DNA of 64,000 bases from Flavobacteriaceae bacterium UJ101. Lineage in GTDB: Bacteria; Bacteroidota; Bacteroidia; Flavobacteriales; UJ101. Of the stretch, positions 51,663-64,000 are shown in pieces. The stretch is taken from positions 2,924,501-2,988,500 of the forward strand of contig CP016269.1 of NCBI GenBank assembly GCA_001880285.1, written 5' to 3'. Each line of letters begins with the position of its first letter. The first letter of the stretch is position 1. The position numbers and the translations under genes were made by a program. The notes under the pieces are model-generated. The model saw nothing but the letters and a program-made list of their open reading frames with translations, was not told the DNA's origin and made no database searches.

Positions 51663-51672
51663 CATGCTAATT

Positions 51673-52275
51673 ATGATAAATACAAAGGAAAAAATATTAG
51701 AAAAATCTGCAGAATTGTTTTTATCAATAGGTGTCAAAGCAATTACTATGGATGATGTATCAAGTTCGCTTGGTATGTCAAAAAAGACATTGTACAATCA
51801 TTTTTCAACAAAAAAAGTGTTAATTAAAGAAACGTTAACTTTTTTTTTCAATCGTATTGATAAGATTATTGAAGAAATAAATTCACGTGATTTAAATGCA
51901 ATAGAAAAATGGTTAGTAACGTTAGAAGAAATATCATCTGTTGTACATATAGATGATAAGGGGAGTTGTTCATTACAAATAAAAAAATACTATCCTAATA
52001 TATTTGAAGAGGTTCAAGCACAACAATGGGAAATTATACGAAGAAATTTTCATAAAAACCTATCACAAGGAATGTTGGAAGGACTCTTTAGGGAGGATTT
52101 TGATATGGATTTATTTATTCGTTTTTATTATTCTGGTATATTAAATATAGAAGAACATAGTATTTTTGAGGGGATTAATTTATCGTATAAAGAATTAAAG
52201 AAAAAGTTTATAGAATTTCAAATTCGTTCAATAGCAACAGAAGAAGGAATTAAAGAATTAGAAAGGATATTATAA
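51673..52275 (+). CDS. TetR/AcrR family regulator
   Basis: This roughly 200-residue regulator has the N-terminal helix-turn-helix: KILEKSAELFLSIGVKAITMDDVSSSLGMSKKTLYNHF. The C-terminal ligand domain is not of a known subtype. An earlier in-frame ATG at 51664 would lie almost on the -7 box, so I chose the ATG at 51673. Its stop overlaps the start of the TolC gene (TAATG). It most likely represses its own efflux operon. Confidence 0.92.
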   Translation: MINTKEKILEKSAELFLSIGVKAITMDDVSSSLGMSKKTLYNHFSTKKVLIKETLTFFFNRIDKIIEEINSRDLNAIEKWLVTLEEISSVVHIDDKGSCSLQIKKYYPNIFEEVQAQQWEIIRRNFHKNLSQGMLEGLFREDFDMDLFIRFYYSGILNIEEHSIFEGINLSYKELKKKFIEFQIRSIATEEGIKELERIL

Positions 52276-53639
52276 TGAGAAATAAATTTAAGAAATTAAC
52301 ATTATTATTTTTAAATTTCCCTATTATGATCTTCTCTCAAAATGTAGAAAATGATTCGATTCAGAGCCATCATTTCACATTTGAAGAAGCAATTAATTAT
52401 GGAGCTAAAAATAATTATGACATACAAAATGCAGACTATGATATTGATGCAGCTGAAAAAAGAGTGTGGGAAACAATTTCAGAAGGATTACCACAAATTG
52501 ATGGAACAGTACAATATCAAAATAATTTAAAACAGCTAGTATCTATTATACCTGGAGAAGCCGTAGGGGGAGAACCAGGAACATTTGTAGAAACTGTTTT
52601 TGGTACTAAGCAAAGTATGGTAGCAGGAATTGGGTGGAACCAATTGATTTTTAGTGGGAACTATTTAGTAGGAATACAATCTTCTAAAGTATATAAACAA
52701 GTTACTGAATTAGCTAAAAATAAGACGGAAATAAATGTAAAAACAGCTGTCGCACAAGCTTATAGCACGGTAATTATTGCTAAAGAAAATGTGAAAATTT
52801 TAGAACGAAATATTGAGGTAGCTAAAAAGAATTTACATGAATCATCAGAAACCTATAAAGCAGGTTTTGTTGAATTACAAGCTGTTGAGCAATTAGAATT
52901 AAGTTTAGCACAATTAAAAAATGCATATGAACGTTCAAAGCGTTTAGTGAAAGTATCAAAAGATAATTTGAAATTTGTAATGGGAATACCTGTGGTAGAA
53001 GAAATTGTATTAGAGGATACAATTGATGATATGATTACAAATAATTTAGTTGATTCATTAATAAAAGAAGAATTCTTAGTAGAGAACAATATTGATTATT
53101 TGATTTCTCAGAATACGATTAAATCAAATGAACTATTGGTGAAATTAAATAAGTCTAACGCTTTACCTACCTTAACTGGGAGTTTAAATTATAGCTATAC
53201 AAAAAATTCAGAGGATTTTCCATTATGGGAAGATGAGTTTAATTGGAATCCTAGTTTAGTGCTAGGAATTAATTTAAATGTTCCTATTTTTAGTTCTTTT
53301 AAAAGAAGGTCACAACGTCAACAAGCTGAAATTGAGTTAGAAAAAGCACATGTTTCCAATACAAAATTAGAAGAAGAATTGGAGCTAAATGTACGTACAC
53401 AACGTACTTCTTATGAAAATTCAGTTGAAACTTATTATACATCGAAAGATAATATGGAATTGGCAGAAAAAATTTATAAAAAAGAAACAATTAAATATTT
53501 TGAAGGAATCTCAACAAGTAATGATTTAAGAGTTTCTGAAAACCAATATTATAATACGCAGAGTAATTATGTAACCTCTGTATCCGATTTAATTAATGCA
53601 AAAATTGAGTTAGATAAAGCTTTAAATAAATATAACTAA
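52275..53639 (+). CDS. TolC family outer-membrane efflux protein
   Basis: This 454-residue protein has a signal peptide (about 1-22) and long helical segments of the outer-membrane efflux protein family: FTFEEAINYGAKNNYDIQ opens the first repeat, and NVKTAVAQAYSTVIIAKENVKIL is typical. It forms the exit duct for the adaptor and pump encoded next. There are 9 bases to the next gene. Confidence 0.93.
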   Translation: MRNKFKKLTLLFLNFPIMIFSQNVENDSIQSHHFTFEEAINYGAKNNYDIQNADYDIDAAEKRVWETISEGLPQIDGTVQYQNNLKQLVSIIPGEAVGGEPGTFVETVFGTKQSMVAGIGWNQLIFSGNYLVGIQSSKVYKQVTELAKNKTEINVKTAVAQAYSTVIIAKENVKILERNIEVAKKNLHESSETYKAGFVELQAVEQLELSLAQLKNAYERSKRLVKVSKDNLKFVMGIPVVEEIVLEDTIDDMITNNLVDSLIKEEFLVENNIDYLISQNTIKSNELLVKLNKSNALPTLTGSLNYSYTKNSEDFPLWEDEFNWNPSLVLGINLNVPIFSSFKRRSQRQQAEIELEKAHVSNTKLEEELELNVRTQRTSYENSVETYYTSKDNMELAEKIYKKETIKYFEGISTSNDLRVSENQYYNTQSNYVTSVSDLINAKIELDKALNKYN

Positions 53640-53648
53640 GAAAAAGAT

Positions 53649-54833
53649 ATGAAAAAAATATATAGTTTATTGTTCACGGTTCCTTTGTTAGTAATAGTAT
53701 CGTGTAGTGAAGAGAAAAAAATAGAGAGACAATCTGTTGAAAAAGTAATTGAAACAGGAAATTTAGAATCTATTAAACAGAAGAAAGCAGAGATAAGTGC
53801 TGAATATAATAAATTGAGAGATGAACTTTCTCAATTGGATATTGAAATTGACAAACTGGATACTGTACAAAGGTTACCAATTGTAACAACAATAGAAGTT
53901 AACGATACGTTGTTTAACCATTTTCTTGAACTTCAAGGAAGTGTTGAAACGAAAAAAAATATTATAATTTTTCCTGAATATGCAGGTATTTTATCTAAAG
54001 TATACGTAACACAAGGACAAACCGTAAAAAAAGGGCAGACGTTAGCTAAGATTGATGACGGAGGTTTAACACAACAATTGGCACAATTAGAAGTACAATA
54101 CCAATTGGCTAAAACTACTTATGAGCGTCAAAAGCGTTTATGGGATCAAAAAATTGGTTCTGAAATACAGTTTTTACAAGCAAAATCTAATATGGAGGCT
54201 CAAAGAAAAGGAATGGCCGCTATGAAAGATCAAATTGCCAAAACATATGTAGTAGCACCTTTTAGTGGAGTTATTGATGATGTAATTACAGAACAAGGAT
54301 CTGTAGTAGCTCCAGGGTCTTCTCAATTATTTCGAATTGTTAATTTAAGTAATATGTATATCAAAACAGATGTTCCTGAAAATTACTTACCAACTGTGAA
54401 ACGAGGAACACCTGTACAAGTATATTTACCAGTTTTAGGAGAGACGATTCATACCAATATTAGACAAGTTGGAAATAATATTAATGTGAATAATCGTGCT
54501 TTTGAAATAGAAATTGATGTGCCTAATAAAAATGGAATGATAAAGCCAAATTTAACAGCTCAATTAAAAATTAATGATTATCGTAGTGATAATGCAATTT
54601 TGGTTCCTCAAAGTGTTATTTCTGAAAACGCTTTAGGAGAACAATATCTTTATGTAATCGAAGGTTTAAATGAGAAGTCAGAAGCAAAAGTGGTCAAACG
54701 TATTATTACAACTGGTTTATCACAAGATGAAAATATAGAAGTGTTAACAGGTTTAAAATCAGGTGATCAAATTATTAGCGAAGGAGCGCGTAGTGTGAAA
54801 GATGGTGTAAAAGTGATTGTAAAAAACTTTTAA
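53649..54833 (+). CDS. RND efflux periplasmic adaptor
   Basis: This 394-residue membrane fusion protein has a lipobox (VPLLVIVSC), a coiled coil (about 40-75), the lipoyl half-motifs GILSKVYVTQGQTVKKGQTLAKI and TYVVAPFSGVIDDVITEQGSVV, and a beta-barrel domain. It links the TolC-like duct to the RND pump. Confidence 0.93.
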   Translation: MKKIYSLLFTVPLLVIVSCSEEKKIERQSVEKVIETGNLESIKQKKAEISAEYNKLRDELSQLDIEIDKLDTVQRLPIVTTIEVNDTLFNHFLELQGSVETKKNIIIFPEYAGILSKVYVTQGQTVKKGQTLAKIDDGGLTQQLAQLEVQYQLAKTTYERQKRLWDQKIGSEIQFLQAKSNMEAQRKGMAAMKDQIAKTYVVAPFSGVIDDVITEQGSVVAPGSSQLFRIVNLSNMYIKTDVPENYLPTVKRGTPVQVYLPVLGETIHTNIRQVGNNINVNNRAFEIEIDVPNKNGMIKPNLTAQLKINDYRSDNAILVPQSVISENALGEQYLYVIEGLNEKSEAKVVKRIITTGLSQDENIEVLTGLKSGDQIISEGARSVKDGVKVIVKNF

Positions 54834-54854
54834 AAAACCGAAAAGAAAAAATTT

Positions 54855-57800
54855 ATGAGTGATCAAAATACCAAAAAAGAAAAACAATTCGGTTTATCTA
54901 CTTGGGCAATTAATAATCGGATGACCATTTATGTCATGATGGCTTTGTTTCTTTTTATGGGAGAATCAGCCTATTATAATATGGCACGAGAAAATTTCCC
55001 CGAAATAATTGAAACCAAAATATACGTTAGTTCATTATATGCTGGAAATACAGCTGAAGATGTTGAAAAACTAATTACCGATCCACTAGAAGAAGAATTA
55101 AAGAATATTTCAAATGTGGTAGAAGTAACCTCTACCTCACAAGAAGATTATTCTATTATAACGATTGAGTTTGATGAAAATATTTCAGTTGAATCAGCTA
55201 AACAAAAAGTAAAAGATGAAGTAGATGTTGTAGTAGCAGATCCTGATTGGCCTTTATCTAATGGTGCAAAAGTTGAACCTAATGTGTTTGATTTAAACAT
55301 GTCAGAAGAACAAGCCATTATGAATATTAATTTGTATGGTGATTATACAACCAAACAATTAAAAGATTATGCAGAATTACTACAAGATGAGATTGAAACG
55401 ATTCCTGAAATTAAAGAAGCGAGTATTCGTGGAGCTCAAGAATTAGAAGTAGAAGTGGCAGTTGATATTTATAAAATGATGGGAGCTAATGTTAGTTTCG
55501 ATAACGTTATCAATGCCATTAATAATGGAAACCTAACCGTCTCAGGAGGAAATTTAATTTCTAATAAACAACGTCGTAATATTCGAGTAATTGGAGAAAT
55601 TGAAAGGCCATCTGATTTAGAAAATTTTGTTGTTAAAAGTCAAAACGGTGCTGTTTATTTAAAAGATATTGCAACCATTTCTTTTAAAGAGGAAGATAAA
55701 ACAACCTATGCTCGAGAAATGGGAAACCAAGTTGTGATGCTGGATGTAAAAAAACGTTCAGGAAAAAACATGGTAGATGCTGTTGAACAGGTGTATGAAA
55801 AAATTAAAGAAGGAGAAGAAACCTATTTACCTTCTGATCTTAAAATTACTGTAGCCAACGATCAAAAAGATCGAACCGTTAACCAAGTAGATGATTTAGT
55901 AAACAACATTATTTTTGGTGTAATATTGGTTGTAGGAGTTTTGATGTTCTTTTTAGGTTTTAGAAATGCCTTATTTGTTGGTTTTGCGATTCCAATGTCA
56001 ATGTTTATTTCTTTCATGATTTTACAAATGTTAGGATTTACGTTGAACACAATGGTTTTATTTGCTATGGTGATGGGACTGGGAATGCTTGTTGATAATG
56101 GAATTGTAGTAGTAGAAAATGTTTATTCATTGATGGATGAAAGAGGAATGTCTGCAAAAGAAGCTGCTATTCAAGGAGTAAGCGAAATTGCCTTTCCTAT
56201 TATTATTTCAACAGCAACAACAGTGGCAGCCTTTATTCCTTTAGGATTATGGCCTGGAACAATGGGGCAATTTATGATTTATTTCCCTAAAACTTTATCT
56301 ATTGTATTAGGCTCCTCTTTATTTGTAGCGATTTTCTTCAATTCGATGCTAACAGCCGAATTCATGAAAACAGAAGAAGGAAAAATAACCAATAAAGCCT
56401 TATTTTTATATACCGCTATCTTAGTTGGAACAGGTGTATTAGCTATTCTTTTTGGGAAATTAGGGTCTGGAGTATTTGGTTTTGGAGCATTGTTAATTTT
56501 TGCAGCTGTCTTTTTATGGTTGTATCGATTTTTATTAGAACCAGCAGCCAATTTCTTCCAAAATCGTATTTTAACATGGATGGAACGTGTATATAAAAGC
56601 TTTTTAAGTTTTGCTTTAAAAGGATGGCACGCTATTGCATTCTTGATTGGGACATTTGCATTATTAGTTTTTTCAATTATGTTAGTTGGAATGGCTCAAC
56701 CAAAAGTTGAATTTTTCCCAGAGAATAAACCCAACCAAATTATTACTTATATAGAATATCCACAGGGAACTGATATTGAAAAAACCAACGCTATCACAAA
56801 AGATGTAGAAAAGAAAATCTTTGATGTATTGAAACAATATACAGATGATGATGGATATAATTATATGGTTGAATCAGCTGTATCACAGGTAGGAGAAGGA
56901 GCAGGGAATCCGCAAACAGATGGAGGATCTACCGCTGAAATGCCTCATAAAGGGAAAATTACCGTTTCTATGCGAGAATACAAGTATCGAAGAGGTGTTG
57001 ATTCAGAAGATATTCAAAAACAAATTCAAGAAGCTGTAAAAGGATATCCAGGCGTTTCCATTACAGTTGAAAAAGATGCAGCAGGACCTCCGGCTGGTTA
57101 TCCAGTGAATATCGAAATCACAGGAAATGATTACGATGAGTTAATTATTACAGCGAATGATATAAAAAATTATATTGAAAATACAGGAGTAGATGGTATT
57201 GAAGATTTACGCTTAGATGTAACCAAGTCAAAACCAGGTATTCAAGTTGAAGTAGATCGTAAAAAAGCAGGTGAATTAGGTGTTGCTGTAGGACAAGTTG
57301 GATTACAAATTCGTCGTTCACTTTATGGTGAAAAATCGGGGACTTATAAAAAAGATGGTGACGATTATGATATTTATGTTCGATTTAATGAAGAAAATCG
57401 TTATAATATCAATTCATTATTCAATCAACAAATTGTATTTAGAGATCAACTCTCAGGGCAATTGAAGCAAGTTCCATTATCTGCAGTTACAGAAAAGAAA
57501 AATGTATCTTCATTTACAGCTATTAAACACCGTGATTTAAAACGAGTTGTAACAGTTTACTCAGATGTATTACCAGGATATAATGCTACTGAAATTGTAA
57601 ATCAATTAAAAGGAGAACTAAAAGGATTTAAAACCCCAAATGGTGTAAAGTTTAGTTTTACAGGAGAAATGGAAGAACAAGAAGATAATATGATGTTCTT
57701 ATTATCAGCTTTAGCATCAGGATTAGGTTTGATTATGTTATTATTGGTATTCCAATTTAATTCTATTTCAAAACCAACGATTATTATGATTGCTATTTTC

Positions 57801-58376
57801 TTGAGTTTTATCGGAGTATTCTTAGGGTTGGTTATTTCAGGAAAACCATTTGTTATTATGATGACAATGATGGGAATTATTTCACTGGCAGGAATTGTGG
57901 TGAATAATGGAGTAGTATTATTGGATTATACAGAGCTTTTAATTTCGCGTAAAAAACACGAATTACAAATTCCTGAAAATATTATGCTTCCTAAAGAACA
58001 TATATACGATGCTATTGTAGCAGGAGGGGTTTCGCGTTTGCGTCCGGTATTGTTAACCGCCATTACTACTGTTTTAGGACTAATGCCTCTTGCTGTAGGA
58101 TTAAATATTGATTTCTTTGGATTATTTAAAAATTTAAATCCTAATATCTATTTTGGAGGAGATAACGTTATTTTCTGGGGACCTTTAGCATGGACTGTAA
58201 TTTATGGTTTAACTTTTGCTACATTTTTAACTTTAATTATTGTTCCTGTAATGTACTATTTAGTTAATCAATTAAAATTATGGTATAGAGGGAAACAAGA
58301 AAAGAAAAAAAGACGCTCAAAATTTGACGATTATTTTGATGATAAAGCGGAAACAGGTCTTGATTCTATTAGATAA
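54855..58376 (+). CDS. RND efflux permease
   Basis: This 1173-residue inner-membrane pump has the HAE-type architecture. TM1 is at about 20-40, followed by a first periplasmic loop (ARENFPEIIETKIYVSS), TM2-6 (LVDNGIVVVENVYS is the TM4 proton-relay region, and ISTATTVAAFIPLGLWPG is conserved), a second loop, and TM7-12. About 100 extra hydrophobic residues sit in the middle (FLYTAILVGTGVLAIL, FGALLIFAAVFLWLYRF), making it longer than AcrB (1049). The substrate is unknown. It ends the operon; a strong terminator follows. Confidence 0.94.
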   Translation: MSDQNTKKEKQFGLSTWAINNRMTIYVMMALFLFMGESAYYNMARENFPEIIETKIYVSSLYAGNTAEDVEKLITDPLEEELKNISNVVEVTSTSQEDYSIITIEFDENISVESAKQKVKDEVDVVVADPDWPLSNGAKVEPNVFDLNMSEEQAIMNINLYGDYTTKQLKDYAELLQDEIETIPEIKEASIRGAQELEVEVAVDIYKMMGANVSFDNVINAINNGNLTVSGGNLISNKQRRNIRVIGEIERPSDLENFVVKSQNGAVYLKDIATISFKEEDKTTYAREMGNQVVMLDVKKRSGKNMVDAVEQVYEKIKEGEETYLPSDLKITVANDQKDRTVNQVDDLVNNIIFGVILVVGVLMFFLGFRNALFVGFAIPMSMFISFMILQMLGFTLNTMVLFAMVMGLGMLVDNGIVVVENVYSLMDERGMSAKEAAIQGVSEIAFPIIISTATTVAAFIPLGLWPGTMGQFMIYFPKTLSIVLGSSLFVAIFFNSMLTAEFMKTEEGKITNKALFLYTAILVGTGVLAILFGKLGSGVFGFGALLIFAAVFLWLYRFLLEPAANFFQNRILTWMERVYKSFLSFALKGWHAIAFLIGTFALLVFSIMLVGMAQPKVEFFPENKPNQIITYIEYPQGTDIEKTNAITKDVEKKIFDVLKQYTDDDGYNYMVESAVSQVGEGAGNPQTDGGSTAEMPHKGKITVSMREYKYRRGVDSEDIQKQIQEAVKGYPGVSITVEKDAAGPPAGYPVNIEITGNDYDELIITANDIKNYIENTGVDGIEDLRLDVTKSKPGIQVEVDRKKAGELGVAVGQVGLQIRRSLYGEKSGTYKKDGDDYDIYVRFNEENRYNINSLFNQQIVFRDQLSGQLKQVPLSAVTEKKNVSSFTAIKHRDLKRVVTVYSDVLPGYNATEIVNQLKGELKGFKTPNGVKFSFTGEMEEQEDNMMFLLSALASGLGLIMLLLVFQFNSISKPTIIMIAIFLSFIGVFLGLVISGKPFVIMMTMMGIISLAGIVVNNGVVLLDYTELLISRKKHELQIPENIMLPKEHIYDAIVAGGVSRLRPVLLTAITTVLGLMPLAVGLNIDFFGLFKNLNPNIYFGGDNVIFWGPLAWTVIYGLTFATFLTLIIVPVMYYLVNQLKLWYRGKQEKKKRRSKFDDYFDDKAETGLDSIR

Positions 58377-58706: not shown

Positions 58707-61283
58707 ATGGGCGATGTAAGTACGAAACAAAAAACATATACTTATGAGGAAGTTTTAGAGTCTTCAAAAAAGTATTTCAAGGAAGATGAATTAGCAGCAA
58801 CAACTTGGATGAATAAGTATGCTGTCAAAGATAATGAAGGAAAATTTACAGAGTTAACACCTGATGATATGCACAAGCGTATGGCAAAAGAATTTGCTAG
58901 AATTGAAGCTAACTATCATCTTGAAGATAAAAAAGAAGGACTTTCTGAATACGGAAAAAATAGAAAACCTTTAACAGAAAAGAAGATTTATAACTTATTT
59001 AAAGGTTTTGAGTATACCATTCCTCAGGGTAGTATTATGGCTGCTTTAGGAAATCAGTATATGATTGCTTCATTAAGTAACTGTGTGGTTGTACCACCTG
59101 TATACGATTCGTACGGTGGAATTTGTTATTCTGACCAACAATTAGCCCAATTATTTAAAAGACGTTGTGGTGCAGGAGTAGATCTTTCAGGATTACGTCC
59201 TAATAAAGCCAATGTTTCCAATGCTGCAGGAACTACAACAGGAGCAGCTTCTTTTATGCATCGTTTTTCTAACACAACACGTGAAGTAGCACAAAATGGT
59301 CGTAGAGGAGCTTTAATGTTAACAATAGATATTGCACATCCTGATGTGGAGGATTTTGTAACGATTAAACAAGATTTAACAAAAGTTACAGGAGCGAATA
59401 TCTCAGTTCGTCTTTCAGATGAATTTATGAATGCTGTAGTGAACGATACTGATTATACCTTACGTTGGCCTATCGATTCACCTGATCCAGAATATACAAA
59501 AGTGGTTCGTGCAAAAGATTTATGGAATACTGTAATTCGTTGTGCACATAATACAGCTGAACCAGGATTAATTTTCTGGGATCGTCAACATTGGTACTCA
59601 ACATCATCTGTTTATCCAGGTTTTGAAAATAGTTCTACTAATCCTTGTTCAGAAATTGCAATGCAAGGGGGAGATTCTTGTCGTTTAATTGCAGTGAACT
59701 TATATTCTTTTGTTGAAAATCCTTTTACTAAAGAAGCAAAATTTAATTTTGATAAATTTTATGAAGTGATTTACGAATCACAACATTTAATGGATAACTT
59801 AGTGGATCTAGAATTAGAAGCTGTAGATAAAATTATTGCTAAAGTTGATGGAGATCCAGAACCAGATTATATTAAAAGTGTTGAAAGAAAAACATGGGAA
59901 ACACTTCGTGATGCAGGGAAAAATGGGCGTCGAACAGGATTAGGTTTTACAGCTATTGCCGATTGTGTAGCAGCTTTAGGATTAAAAATTGACGGTAATG
60001 ATGCTTTAGCTGTAATTGATGAAATTATGAAAGTTAAATTACGTGGTGAATTTGATTCTTCTATCGATATGGCAATTGAACGAGGTACTTTTACAGGATT
60101 TAATAAAAAATATGAAGATACTTCTGAGTTCGTTCAAATGATGCAAAAAGAATTCAAAGATGTATACGAAAGAATGATGAAATACGGTCGTCGTAATATT
60201 TCAATTTCTACTGTAGCTCCAACAGGTTCTTTAAGTATGTTAGCCCAAACTTCTTCTGGAATTGAACCCGTATTTTTACTATCATATAAAAGAAGAAGAA
60301 AAATCAACCAAAATGATAAATCAGCAAAAGTAAGTTTTGTAGATGATTTAGGAGATGCATGGGAAGAGTTTGATGTATATCACAAAAAACTGGAAACTTG
60401 GATGCAAGTTACAGGAGAATCTGATATTGCAGATAGTCCTTATGCAGGAGCAACAGCACCTGAAATTGACTGGATGAAACGTGTGGAATTACAAGCTTTA
60501 GTTCAAAAATATACAACACATTCTATTAGCTCTACTATTAACTTAGCTTCTGATGTAAGTGTTGATCAAGTAGGTGATATTTATATTGAATCTTGGAAAC
60601 AAGGATTAAAAGGAATTACTGTTTACCGTGATGGATCTCGTTCAGGAGTATTGGTAGCAAATGATGATAAGAAAGATAAAGATAAAAAAGATTTAGAATC
60701 TGCTTTAGAAAATGTAGCTATTCAATTTAAAGAACATCATGCACCTACAAGACCTAAAAAATTAGAAGCTGAAATTTTACGTTTTCAAAATGATTATGAA
60801 AAATGGGTAGCAGTTATTGGTCTTCTAGAAGGACGCCCTTATGAAGTATTTACAGGTAAATTAGAAGATGCAATCTATGTTCCACAATACGTAGAAAAAG
60901 GTTGGGTAATCAAAAATAGAACAGAAGAAGGTGCTTCCCGTTACGATTTCCAATATATGGATAAAGATGGTTATCGTGTTACAATTGAAGGATTATCACG
61001 TTCCTTCAACAAAGAATATTGGAATTATGCTAAATTAATATCAGGAGTACTTCGTCATGGTATGCCAATTACATCTGCTGTAGATTTAATAGCTGATTTA
61101 AATTTATACGATGAACATATCAATACATGGAAAAATGGAGTAGCTCGTGCTTTGAAAAAGTATGTGACAGATGGTGCTACCATGAAAGATCACGCTTGTC
61201 CAAGCTGTGAAGATCCGAAAGGATTAGTCTTTGAAGAAGGCTGTATTGTTTGTAAAAGTTGTGGTTATTCTAAATGTGGATAA
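58707..61283 (+). CDS. nrdJ: Adenosylcobalamin-dependent (class II) ribonucleotide reductase
   Basis: NrdJ reduces ribonucleotides to deoxyribonucleotides using adenosylcobalamin and needs no oxygen. This 858-residue protein has SLSNCVVVPPVYDSYGGI, RCGAGVDLSGLRP, NPCSEIAMQGGDSCRL (active-site NxCxE) and APTGSLSMLAQTSSGIEPVF. It ends with a zinc-ribbon-like segment, CPSCEDPKG...CIVCKSCGYSKCG, which acts in re-reduction. A terminator separates it from the sigma-factor region. Confidence 0.94.
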   Translation: MGDVSTKQKTYTYEEVLESSKKYFKEDELAATTWMNKYAVKDNEGKFTELTPDDMHKRMAKEFARIEANYHLEDKKEGLSEYGKNRKPLTEKKIYNLFKGFEYTIPQGSIMAALGNQYMIASLSNCVVVPPVYDSYGGICYSDQQLAQLFKRRCGAGVDLSGLRPNKANVSNAAGTTTGAASFMHRFSNTTREVAQNGRRGALMLTIDIAHPDVEDFVTIKQDLTKVTGANISVRLSDEFMNAVVNDTDYTLRWPIDSPDPEYTKVVRAKDLWNTVIRCAHNTAEPGLIFWDRQHWYSTSSVYPGFENSSTNPCSEIAMQGGDSCRLIAVNLYSFVENPFTKEAKFNFDKFYEVIYESQHLMDNLVDLELEAVDKIIAKVDGDPEPDYIKSVERKTWETLRDAGKNGRRTGLGFTAIADCVAALGLKIDGNDALAVIDEIMKVKLRGEFDSSIDMAIERGTFTGFNKKYEDTSEFVQMMQKEFKDVYERMMKYGRRNISISTVAPTGSLSMLAQTSSGIEPVFLLSYKRRRKINQNDKSAKVSFVDDLGDAWEEFDVYHKKLETWMQVTGESDIADSPYAGATAPEIDWMKRVELQALVQKYTTHSISSTINLASDVSVDQVGDIYIESWKQGLKGITVYRDGSRSGVLVANDDKKDKDKKDLESALENVAIQFKEHHAPTRPKKLEAEILRFQNDYEKWVAVIGLLEGRPYEVFTGKLEDAIYVPQYVEKGWVIKNRTEEGASRYDFQYMDKDGYRVTIEGLSRSFNKEYWNYAKLISGVLRHGMPITSAVDLIADLNLYDEHINTWKNGVARALKKYVTDGATMKDHACPSCEDPKGLVFEEGCIVCKSCGYSKCG

Positions 61284-61357: not shown

Positions 61358-61386
61358 TGCATCATTTTTTTTATTTCTCGTCTTAG
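61358..61386 (+). promoter_or_regulatory. ECF-type promoter 1 (oxidoreductase)
   Basis: TGCATC, 15 bases, then CGTCTTAG, 26 bases before the ATG. CGTC is a common ECF -10 core. The same element with the same spacing occurs at 62747 and 63779. Confidence 0.7.
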
Positions 61387-61411
61387 ATAGTGAATTAAAA
61401 AATTAGTAAAG

Positions 61412-62731
61412 ATGCAAAATAATACATTACCTATAGCAATAATTGGAGGAGGTCCAATAGGGTTAGCGGCAGCAGCACATTTAACAAAAAGAAAAATCCC
61501 TTTTATATTATTTGAAGCAGGAGAATCAGTTGGAAGTAATTTTTTGTCTTGGGGACATGTTCGAGTATTCTCTCCTTGGAGATATAATGTTGATCAAGTA
61601 GCGAAAGAGTTATTGCTGGAAACAGGTTGGTCAATGCCTAATGAAGAAGGTATTCCAACAGGTAGAGAATTAGTAGAAGATTATTTTATACCTCTTTCTG
61701 AACATTCTTCAATTAAACCTCATATTCATTTAAATACGAAAGTGGAATCCATAGGAAGAAAAGGGCTTGATAAAGTAAAAACAGCAGGAAGAGAAATAAA
61801 ACCGTTTGTTATAAAAGTAAATGAAAAGGGCATAATAAAATATTACGAAGCAAAAGGTGTAATCGATTCTTCAGGAACTTGGAATCAACCGAATCCTATT
61901 GGTTCAGGTGGAGTTTTGGCAGAAGGAGAACAAGAGTTGAAAGATGCTATTTATTATGGAATTCCTAATGTTAAGCAAGATGCTTTAGAGCGTTACAAAA
62001 ACAAAAATGTTTTGGTTGTAGGAGGAGGGCATTCGGCAATTAATGTTCTTTTAGATTTAGCAGATGTTCAAAAAGAGTATCCTAAAACACAGATTAATTG
62101 GGTTCTGAGAAAAAAAGACCTTGCCACAGTTTACGGTGGTAAAGAAGATGATGCATTGGAGGCAAGAGGTACATTAGGTATCCGAATTGAAAAATTAGTT
62201 AACAGTGGAAAATTAAATGTTTATACACCCTTCCATATTTTAAAATTATTTAAAAATGATCAAGGAATTCAAATAGAAGGAACTTTGAATGGAAAAATAG
62301 AGCATATCCAAAATATTGATGAAATTATCAGTAATACGGGTTCAAGACCTAATTTGGAGATGATACGGGAAATTCGAATTGATTTAGATGCATCACTAGA
62401 AGCTGTTTTTGATTTGGCAGAATTGATTGATCCCAATATTCATAGTTGTGGAACTGTTAGACCTCATGGAGAAAAAGAATTAAGACACCCTGAAAAAGAT
62501 TTTTACATTGTTGGCTCTAAAAGTTATGGAAGAGCACCTACATTTTTAATGGCTACAGGTTATGAACAAGTACGTTCCATTGTTGCCTATATGGATGGTG
62601 ATATTGAAGCAGCAGAAAGAGTTGAATTAAACTTACCTCAAACAGGTGTATGTAGTTCCAATATTGGAAGTGAGCTTAATGATTGCTGTTCAACAGAAAA
62701 AGAAAATACTACTATAACAAGTTGTTGCTAA
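61412..62731 (+). CDS. Flavin-dependent oxidoreductase with Cys-rich tail
   Basis: This 439-residue protein has two dinucleotide-binding motifs: PIAIIGGGPIGLAAAAHL at the N-terminus (FAD) and VLVVGGGHSAINVLLDLA at about 207 (NAD(P)H). It resembles flavin monooxygenase/thioredoxin-reductase-like proteins, but no redox CxxC is seen in the core. The last 28 residues are an appended tail (GVCSSNIGSEL, NDCCST, ending TSCC) with five cysteines. Such enzymes are known in arsenic operons (ArsO type), but the substrate here is unproven. It is preceded by the shared ECF promoter and followed by the Cys-peptide genes. Confidence 0.82.
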   Translation: MQNNTLPIAIIGGGPIGLAAAAHLTKRKIPFILFEAGESVGSNFLSWGHVRVFSPWRYNVDQVAKELLLETGWSMPNEEGIPTGRELVEDYFIPLSEHSSIKPHIHLNTKVESIGRKGLDKVKTAGREIKPFVIKVNEKGIIKYYEAKGVIDSSGTWNQPNPIGSGGVLAEGEQELKDAIYYGIPNVKQDALERYKNKNVLVVGGGHSAINVLLDLADVQKEYPKTQINWVLRKKDLATVYGGKEDDALEARGTLGIRIEKLVNSGKLNVYTPFHILKLFKNDQGIQIEGTLNGKIEHIQNIDEIISNTGSRPNLEMIREIRIDLDASLEAVFDLAELIDPNIHSCGTVRPHGEKELRHPEKDFYIVGSKSYGRAPTFLMATGYEQVRSIVAYMDGDIEAAERVELNLPQTGVCSSNIGSELNDCCSTEKENTTITSCC

Positions 62732-62746
62732 AATTTTTAAATATTC

Positions 62747-62775
62747 TGCATCATTTTAAAAAACAAACGTCTTAG
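62747..62775 (+). promoter_or_regulatory. ECF-type promoter 2 (Cys peptides)
   Basis: TGCATC-N15-CGTCTTAG again, 35 bases before the ATG of the 51-residue peptide. The base after TGCATC continues ATTTT in all three copies. Confidence 0.72.
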
Positions 62776-62810
62776 TAAATAGAAAAACAAAATATAAAAA
62801 ATATCAAATT

Positions 62811-62966
62811 ATGAAAACGAATAAAAGAAATTCTCAAGAAACAGTAAAACAACAAGGAGGAGGATGCTGTGCCTCAGTTCCTGAAGTAAAAATAACAACA
62901 CCAATATCATGTTGTGGAAATGAAAAGAGAGAAGAAGAAAATATTCAAGAAAATAAGTGTTGTTAA
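62811..62966 (+). CDS. Cys-rich small peptide 1 (51 residues)
   Basis: The ORF begins MKTNKRNSQETVKQQGGGCC, continues with ASVPEVKITTPISCCGNEKR and ends NIQENKCC. Six cysteines form three CC pairs; the rest is Lys/Glu/Gln-rich with no hydrophobic segment. The start codon sits 35 bases after the ECF-type promoter, and the ORF is on the same strand as its neighbours. It could be a metal- or metalloid-binding peptide or a modified-peptide precursor. No family is recognised. Confidence 0.72.
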   Translation: MKTNKRNSQETVKQQGGGCCASVPEVKITTPISCCGNEKREEENIQENKCC

Positions 62967-63009
62967 AAACAACAAACAAATCAAATATTAATCATTAAAA
63001 CATATCATT

Positions 63010-63090
63010 ATGAAAACAAAAGAAATAATAGTAAAAGGTAGAAACAATTGTTGTGATTCTGGATGTTGTGGTGGGTCAGGATGCTGCTAA
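63010..63090 (+). CDS. Cys-rich small peptide 2 (26 residues)
   Basis: The ORF begins MKTKEIIVKGRNNCCDSG and ends CCGGSGCC. Six of 26 residues are cysteine, in three pairs. The MKT start and the CC end match peptide 1, 43 bases upstream, and a terminator follows at 63118. It is too short to be sure of, but shared features and position make it likely to be expressed. Confidence 0.65.
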   Translation: MKTKEIIVKGRNNCCDSGCCGGSGCC

Positions 63091-63117
63091 ACACTCAGAC
63101 AATAATATCAGACTTAA

Positions 63118-63146
63118 AAAGCTCTCTAAAAATAGAGAGCTTTATC
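63118..63146 (+). terminator. Terminator after the Cys-peptide genes
   Basis: AAAGCTCTCTA and its complement form an 11-bp stem around AAAA. Only three T residues follow directly. Confidence 0.75.
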
Positions 63147-63219
63147 CATTATATTTTATGTGATTTTTTATTTTTAAATAAGGTTTCATACTCATTATTT
63201 ATTAATTTTATCATTAAAA

Positions 63220-63759
63220 ATGCAAAATCAAATAGAACAACTATATAAACCTCTTTTCTTTTACATCAGAAAAAGAATTAATAATCAGGAGGATGCTGAA
63301 GACTTAACCCAAGAAGTTTTTTATAAACTAGCTAAGTCTAATCAAGAAGAGGTGGAGAACTTAAAAAGTTGGGTGTATGCTATTGCCAAGAATACTATAA
63401 CTGATTATTATCGAAAGAAGAAAATGATCACACAAGAAGTGGAGGATATTTCTTTTCCTGAAGATCACGAAGATCATGAAGCATCAAAAGAATTAAGTCA
63501 ATGCGTTACGTCATTTGTTAATGCTCTTCCTGAGGAGGATAGAGCTATTATGACACTTTCTGAATTAGAAAATGTTTCTCAAAAAGAAATTGCAGCACAA
63601 TTGGATATGAATTATGTAACGGTTCGCTCAAAAATTCAACGTGGTAGAAAAAAATTAAAAGAATTATTTTCAGATTGTTGTGTGATACTTCAAGGAGGAA
63701 AAGGAAGTATTTTGGATTACGAACAAAAAGAAGATTGTAAAGGAAAAACTTCATGTTAA
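63220..63759 (+). CDS. ECF sigma factor, SigZ-like, with Cys-rich tail
   Basis: This 179-residue sigma-70 family protein has region 2 (about 5-70: RINNQEDAEDLTQEVFYKL, LKSWVYAIAKNTITDYYRK) and region 4 (about 108-150: ALPEEDRAIMTLSELENVSQ, KEIAAQLDMNYVTVRSKIQRG). The last 28 residues have DCC, a DYEQK segment and a final DCKGKTSC, the Cys-rich tail seen in SigZ-type factors. No anti-sigma gene is adjacent, so the tail itself may sense thiols or metals. Three copies of a matching ECF promoter surround it. No such promoter was found before this gene itself. Confidence 0.9.
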   Translation: MQNQIEQLYKPLFFYIRKRINNQEDAEDLTQEVFYKLAKSNQEEVENLKSWVYAIAKNTITDYYRKKKMITQEVEDISFPEDHEDHEASKELSQCVTSFVNALPEEDRAIMTLSELENVSQKEIAAQLDMNYVTVRSKIQRGRKKLKELFSDCCVILQGGKGSILDYEQKEDCKGKTSC

Positions 63760-63778
63760 AAAATATATTTGGCTCTAA

Positions 63779-63806
63779 TGCATCATTTTAAATTTTTATC
63801 GTCTAC
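63779..63806 (+). promoter_or_regulatory. ECF-type promoter 3 (C-S lyase)
   Basis: TGCATC, 15 bases, then CGTCTAC, 27 bases before the ATG. Its -10 half differs slightly (CGTCTAC instead of CGTCTTA). Confidence 0.68.
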
Positions 63807-63833: not shown

Positions 63834-64000
63834 ATGAACCAGTTTGATCAAATTAATAAAAATTTTGAGCACAAATTTGCTAAAGAAAATCCTAGAATGC
63901 TTCATTACTTATTTGAAACACAAGATGTTTTGCCATTTTGGATTGCAGATATGGATTTTACGGTTGCAGAGCCTATAACAAAAGAGTTAAAAAGACTTGT
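63834..64000 (+). CDS. PatB/MalY-type C-S lyase (N-terminus only)
   Basis: The ORF runs off the window end after about 55 codons. MNQFDQINKNFEHKFAKENP, then DVLPFWIADMDFTVAEPI, is the opening of PLP-dependent cystathionine beta-lyases of the PatB/MalY class (WxADMDF motif). These enzymes cleave C-S bonds in cystathionine or cysteine conjugates. The gene carries the shared ECF promoter, linking it to the Cys peptides and the oxidoreductase. Confidence 0.82.
   Translation, partial: MNQFDQINKNFEHKFAKENPRMLHYLFETQDVLPFWIADMDFTVAEPITKELKRL

Follow-up and report, generated by a model that had tools for sequence, protein, structure and literature searches.

In the ECF sigma factor CorE, a Cys-rich C-terminal extension can act as a metal sensor with no need of an anti-sigma factor (PMC8999054), and Bca-type amidases split bacillithiol conjugates, yielding Cys conjugates (CysSR) (PMC4360819). 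We analysed a cluster that shares features with both systems, lying at the end of a 64-kb stretch of the Flavobacteriaceae bacterium UJ101 genome (64 000 nucleotides, hereafter the window). Its gene set, Cys-rich and probably metal- or thiol-detoxifying, is of a little-studied kind, and a literature search found no description of such a regulon. The same two-box element stands before the oxidoreductase gene (P1), the Cys-peptide/sigZ operon (P2) and the C-S lyase operon (P3). Judged from sequence comparison, it is highly likely that this element is a promoter recognised by the cluster's own SigZ-like ECF sigma factor, which would be autoregulated and have P1 and P3 as targets.

The cluster and its paired element

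The features of the cluster are listed in Table 1. The initial annotation had described TGCATC-N15-CGTCT before the oxidoreductase, the Cys peptides and the C-S lyase, with a constant gap of 15 bases and no fourth copy in the window. Our search bore this out, giving three exact copies where 0.01 are expected; none of 100 dinucleotide shuffles reached three. ATTTT follows TGCATC at P1, P2 and P3, and the refined element is TGCATCATTTT-N10-CGTCTTA. The start codon had been placed 26–35 bases downstream, which holds for P1 (28 bases between CGTCT and the ATG) and P3 (29) but not for P2 (38).

Table 1. Features of the cluster (window positions, except where prefixed L026)
Feature	Position	Strand	Evidence
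Promoter P1 (putative), −35-like TGCATC(ATTTT), N15, −10-like CGTCT(TA)	61358..61383	+	exact copy; kept before OXR orthologues
FAD/NAD(P)H oxidoreductase (OXR), distantly ArsO/YpdA-like, Cys-Cys tail	61412..62731	+	profile matches
Promoter P2 (putative), before Cys-peptide/sigZ operon	62747..62772	+	exact copy; kept in relatives
51-aa peptide, three CC pairs	62811..62966	+	homologues in most relatives
26-aa CC peptide MKTKEIIVKGRNNCCDSGCCGGSGCC	63010..63090	+	coding status inferred
11-bp hairpin, peptides/sigZ gap	63118..63143	+	131-nt stretch z=-3.7
SigZ-like ECF sigma factor, Cys-rich C-terminal tail	63220..63759	+	profile matches, alignment
Promoter P3 (putative), before C-S lyase + ArsO-family monooxygenase operon	63779..63804	+	exact copy
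PatB-like C-S lyase, continues beyond window end	63834..64000	+	N-terminal fragment matches PatB model
ArsO-family flavin monooxygenase, 3' of C-S lyase	L026:6497-7534		NF040505 above cut-off

The complete 3.07-Mb genome contains one further exact TGCATC-N15-CGTCT (C1:2812590, minus strand), inside a gene (an 823-aa ORF). With the extended element and up to three mismatches, 8 forward matches were obtained against 2 in reversed controls; those outside the cluster are weaker, and all lie within ORFs save an intergenic copy at C1:1244751. The latter, with three mismatches, was not accepted as a promoter; the other near-copies, being intra-ORF, were rejected. A looser search for TGCATC/CGTCT with two mismatches was uninformative (266 matches versus 165 in the control). 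The extended-element search thus gave no promoter-like copy beyond the cluster; the prediction of more regulon members elsewhere fails in this genome, where the regulon is small and cluster-bound.

OXR (439 aa; Pyr_redox_3, 1e-17) matches the ArsO model at 2.9e-15 and the YpdA model at 2.8e-12, both far below cut-off; with 56 bits against a cut-off of 425 for NF040505, it scores too low for the ArsO family. Two core Cys residues are present in 28/28 OXR orthologues and the CC tail in nearly all. The C-S lyase is 391 aa at full length (L026:5335-6510; Aminotran_1_2, 1e-38). The window scan covered its N-terminal fragment only, and the orthologue in locus L093 scores 381 bits with PatB TIGR04350 (cut-off 340). 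The gene downstream of the lyase belongs to the ArsO family (NF040505, 487 bits). Family searches placed the 51-aa peptide in no known family, and the 26-aa peptide was found only in this genome among the loci compared. Further upstream, the window holds a TetR-type regulator and an OMF-MFP-RND efflux system (51664-58376; identities from reading the translations), followed by a ribonucleotide reductase-like gene (58707-61283; translation read by eye).

The element in relatives and across the phylum

We fetched 23 loci with relatives of OXR, of which 20 are from Bacteroidota (60–78% identity) and span Tenacibaculum and Aquimarina to Chitinophagales, Saprospiraceae and Cyclobacteriaceae assemblies. 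Counting the locus under study, all 21 Bacteroidota loci have the element before OXR, 17 of them as an exact copy and 4 with a single mismatch. Of 17 Cys-peptide operons, 16 are preceded by it (14 exactly, 2 with a single mismatch), and the last site, in L103, is weak. A separate site precedes the C-S lyase here and in L093, L095 and L100, and with one mismatch in L090; in other relatives the lyase follows sigZ without one. The P2 operon of relatives is normally Cys peptide-MFS-sigZ and, since it carries sigZ, the sigma factor is predicted to be autoregulated. Thus, a two-box element is shared by the sigma operon and its presumed targets, as expected of an autoregulated ECF regulon. Several relatives have a fourth target, a secreted Cys-rich protein (without a family in family searches) followed by a DUF4405/DUF2271 membrane protein; overall, the regulons of relatives add an MFS transporter, the Cys-rich secreted protein and PIG-L/bacillithiol-amidase-like enzymes. 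In one Saprospiraceae assembly, the SigZ cluster includes a 'CTP synthase C-terminal region-related (seleno)protein' gene (L094:9289-9987).

A refined consensus was built from 41 sites. Because TGCATC and CGTC are 100% conserved in it by construction, the independent signal lies in ATTTT, TTA and a downstream RRTGAA block, which are conserved though unused in site selection, in contrast to the near-background level of most of the spacer, and in the weight-matrix scores of OXR sites off the exact pattern: these sites, absent from training, score 24–40, where 3000 shuffled windows gave at most 8.8. The RRTGAA block lies 8–14 bases downstream of CGTC, close to where transcription should start (L026:2859-2896 and relatives), and is found at P1 and P2, not at P3. 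An inverted copy (AAAATGATGCA or nearly so) comes after TGCATCATTTT at P1 of L092, L095 and L100 and overlaps the OXR start codon.

Relatives have an MFS gene between the Cys peptide and sigZ; the cluster studied here lacks it and has a hairpin in the gap. Neither the MFS protein nor the secreted Cys protein of relatives has a match in this genome. A short ORF at 63063-63248 has an end resembling an MFS C-terminus, a likeness that comes largely from its overlap with the start of sigZ; deletion of the MFS gene here is therefore likely rather than proven. The hairpin, a strong one, could function as an attenuator or terminator and, because it lies between the two, co-transcription from P2 into sigZ is not certain here.

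Across the phylum, TGCATCATT-N12-CGTCT gave 10 matches in 9 of 394 other genomes. Seven lie within ORFs of at least 224 codons, and the remaining three, in genomes G695 and G215, precede genes of the set or a Cys-rich peptide beside sigZ. G695 has two sites 440 kb apart, before OXR-MFS and before PIG-L-sigZ. In G215 (Flavobacteriaceae) the order is sigZ (37%), site, Cys-rich secreted peptide, ArsR and MerT-HMA, and in G414 a site precedes OXR on one contig and an unlinked sigZ on another. A search for OXR in the same genomes gave six carriers: the genome under study, G695, G498, G582, G650 and G485. An OXR-MFS-sigZ operon with an N16 version of the site is present in G498. The G582 and G650 loci have a diverged SigZ-like gene nearby and no site; the G485 locus has an ArsR-like neighbour, with no SigZ-like gene seen in the stretch. 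The motif was not found near SigZ-like genes of 29–36% identity (G582, G650 and the paralogue in this genome), and therefore tracks one SigZ subgroup. The initial annotation's reading of the element as defining a SigZ-like regulon is thus supported: across the Bacteroidota, orthologous genes have kept the element upstream, and where sigZ and the oxidoreductase are unlinked it accompanies each of them.

A second SigZ-like gene (35%), in L189 (this genome, C1:528500-536000) and in L190, is followed by a small thioredoxin-like gene and then by ArsP permease, MerT-like and HMA genes. A different element, TGTG[AT]C-N19-ACTAC, shared by these two sequences when read by eye, is a possible promoter for it.

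The sigma factor and its candidate promoter

The ECF sigma gene noted earlier in the cluster is confirmed by its matches to TIGR02959 (the SigZ equivalog; E=4.5e-45) and PRK09637 (E=8e-49). Since both scores are below the equivalog cut-offs (153.5 bits versus 168.65, and 166 versus 212), 'SigZ-like' is the right label. The 179-aa protein has the ECF architecture, with Sigma70_r2 (4e-13), Sigma70_r4_2 (9e-16) and no region 3. Its tail follows the pattern CC...QGGKGSI...C...C. The CC directly follows region 4 in every SigZ-like protein aligned, including a Rhodococcus one beside an OXR homologue, and nearly all have further Cys at the tail end. The protein thus shows the Cys-rich C-terminal extension of CorE-type factors, and in the alignment its sigma2-sigma4 linker has a single conserved Cys in place of their CXC. 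There is no typical anti-sigma gene in the cluster. We also considered the Cys peptide as an obligatory anti-sigma factor; this is unlikely, as sigZ has no peptide gene next to it in L104, L105, L184, L186 and L198.

In the mechanism that we propose, TGCATCATTTT would be the −35 box, with 15 bases from TGCATC to the −10 box CGTCTTA. CGTC is frequent at the −10 position of ECF promoters, and TGCATC is an unusual −35 box. SigZ, encoded in the P2 operon, would recognise these boxes directly and activate its own transcription together with P1 (OXR) and P3 (C-S lyase and ArsO). The conserved Cys-rich tail is probably a direct sensor of thiophilic metal(loid)s or oxidants, and sensing would release activity; the regulon products would then bind, oxidise or reduce, cleave and export a thiol-bound toxicant.

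The element might instead be the operator of an ArsR/MarR-type repressor or activator that co-evolved with the cluster, with no sigma promoter involved. The two blocks might represent half-sites, some motif-less OXR loci have ArsR- or HxlR-like neighbours, and an inverted GATGCA overlaps the OXR start codon in several P1 regions. However, the blocks are asymmetric, CGTC is as in ECF −10 boxes with the ATG close by, and the constant partner of the element is sigZ and no regulator gene; the inverted copy is not seen at the other promoters and mostly follows from the Met-Gln start of the protein. An operator is, in our view, improbable. Still less credible, to the point of being negligible, is that one upstream region was recently duplicated, or a mobile repeat inserted, to give three copies without regulatory meaning. 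Three near-identical cores do lie within 2.5 kb, but flanks and spacers vary between copies and species while the boxes stay, and the site recurs before the same genes in distant families and where the loci are unlinked. The comparisons speak strongly for an autoregulated ECF (SigZ) promoter, and the promoter is very probably real and SigZ's own.

Likely function and relation to known systems

The gene set (ArsO, CC peptides, a CC-tailed flavoenzyme, the C-S lyase, the PIG-L enzymes of relatives, and BshC) suggests as the likely function detoxification of thiophilic metal(loid)s or electrophiles with bacillithiol, sensed by the Cys-rich tail of SigZ. BshC is present in this genome, so bacillithiol is likely made. 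In the SigZ regulons of L101 and G695 there are PIG-L enzymes similar to bacillithiol deacetylase/amidase (BshB2-like), and Bca-type cleavage is a plausible source of substrate for the C-S lyase.

With the promoter still SigZ-dependent, the regulon could serve turnover of electrophile/thiol conjugates of bacillithiol and not metal(loid) resistance, an alternative to which we give appreciable weight without thinking it probable. The PIG-L/BshB2-like enzymes, the PatB C-S lyase and BshC fit it, as does the release of CysSR from bacillithiol conjugates by Bca (PMC4360819). Thiophilic metal(loid)s, on the other hand, are indicated by the ArsO family, the vicinal Cys-Cys peptides and tails, the MerT/HMA/ArsP genes beside related sigZ genes, and the ArsR and ArsK-like MFS genes beside OXR homologues. 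The two roles are not mutually exclusive. A picture combining them, which we offer tentatively, is of a SigZ subgroup whose Cys tail would sense metals or thiols and which, free of anti-sigma factors, would read TGCATCATTTT-N10-CGTCTTA directly. It would govern a small detoxification module, spread by horizontal transfer, whose vicinal-Cys peptides and CC-tailed flavoenzymes would pass a thiophilic metal(loid) between them, coupled to cleavage of bacillithiol conjugates.

With these results, a SigZ-type sigma factor of Bacteroidota gains a defined candidate promoter and a compact regulon, searchable phylum-wide. They point to undescribed families of Cys peptides and secreted Cys proteins, and to what is likely a pathway of metal(loid)/thiol detoxification whose control involves no evident anti-sigma factor.

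The cluster resembles ArsO-containing arsenic loci in its ArsO-family monooxygenase above cut-off and, in relatives, the MFS transporter, but lacks ArsR and has ECF control, a C-S lyase and Cys peptides. With bacillithiol S-conjugate detoxification (Bca/BshB2) it has in common the C-S lyase, BshC and, in two SigZ regulons, PIG-L, whereas the cluster itself has no PIG-L gene and the link is an inferred one. To the SigZ family (TIGR02959/PRK09637) the protein matches over its full length, C-terminal tail included, albeit below the equivalog cut-offs, and the literature searched yielded no regulon with such a gene set. CorE and CorE2 of Myxococcus xanthus (PMC8999054) are, like SigZ, ECF factors whose C-terminal extension is rich in Cys and for which no anti-sigma partner is obvious. 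SigZ differs in its shorter tail, other gene set and one conserved linker Cys instead of CXC; because this motif is absent, CorE membership is not claimed, but metal sensing by the CorE extension is the likely analogue for the SigZ tail.
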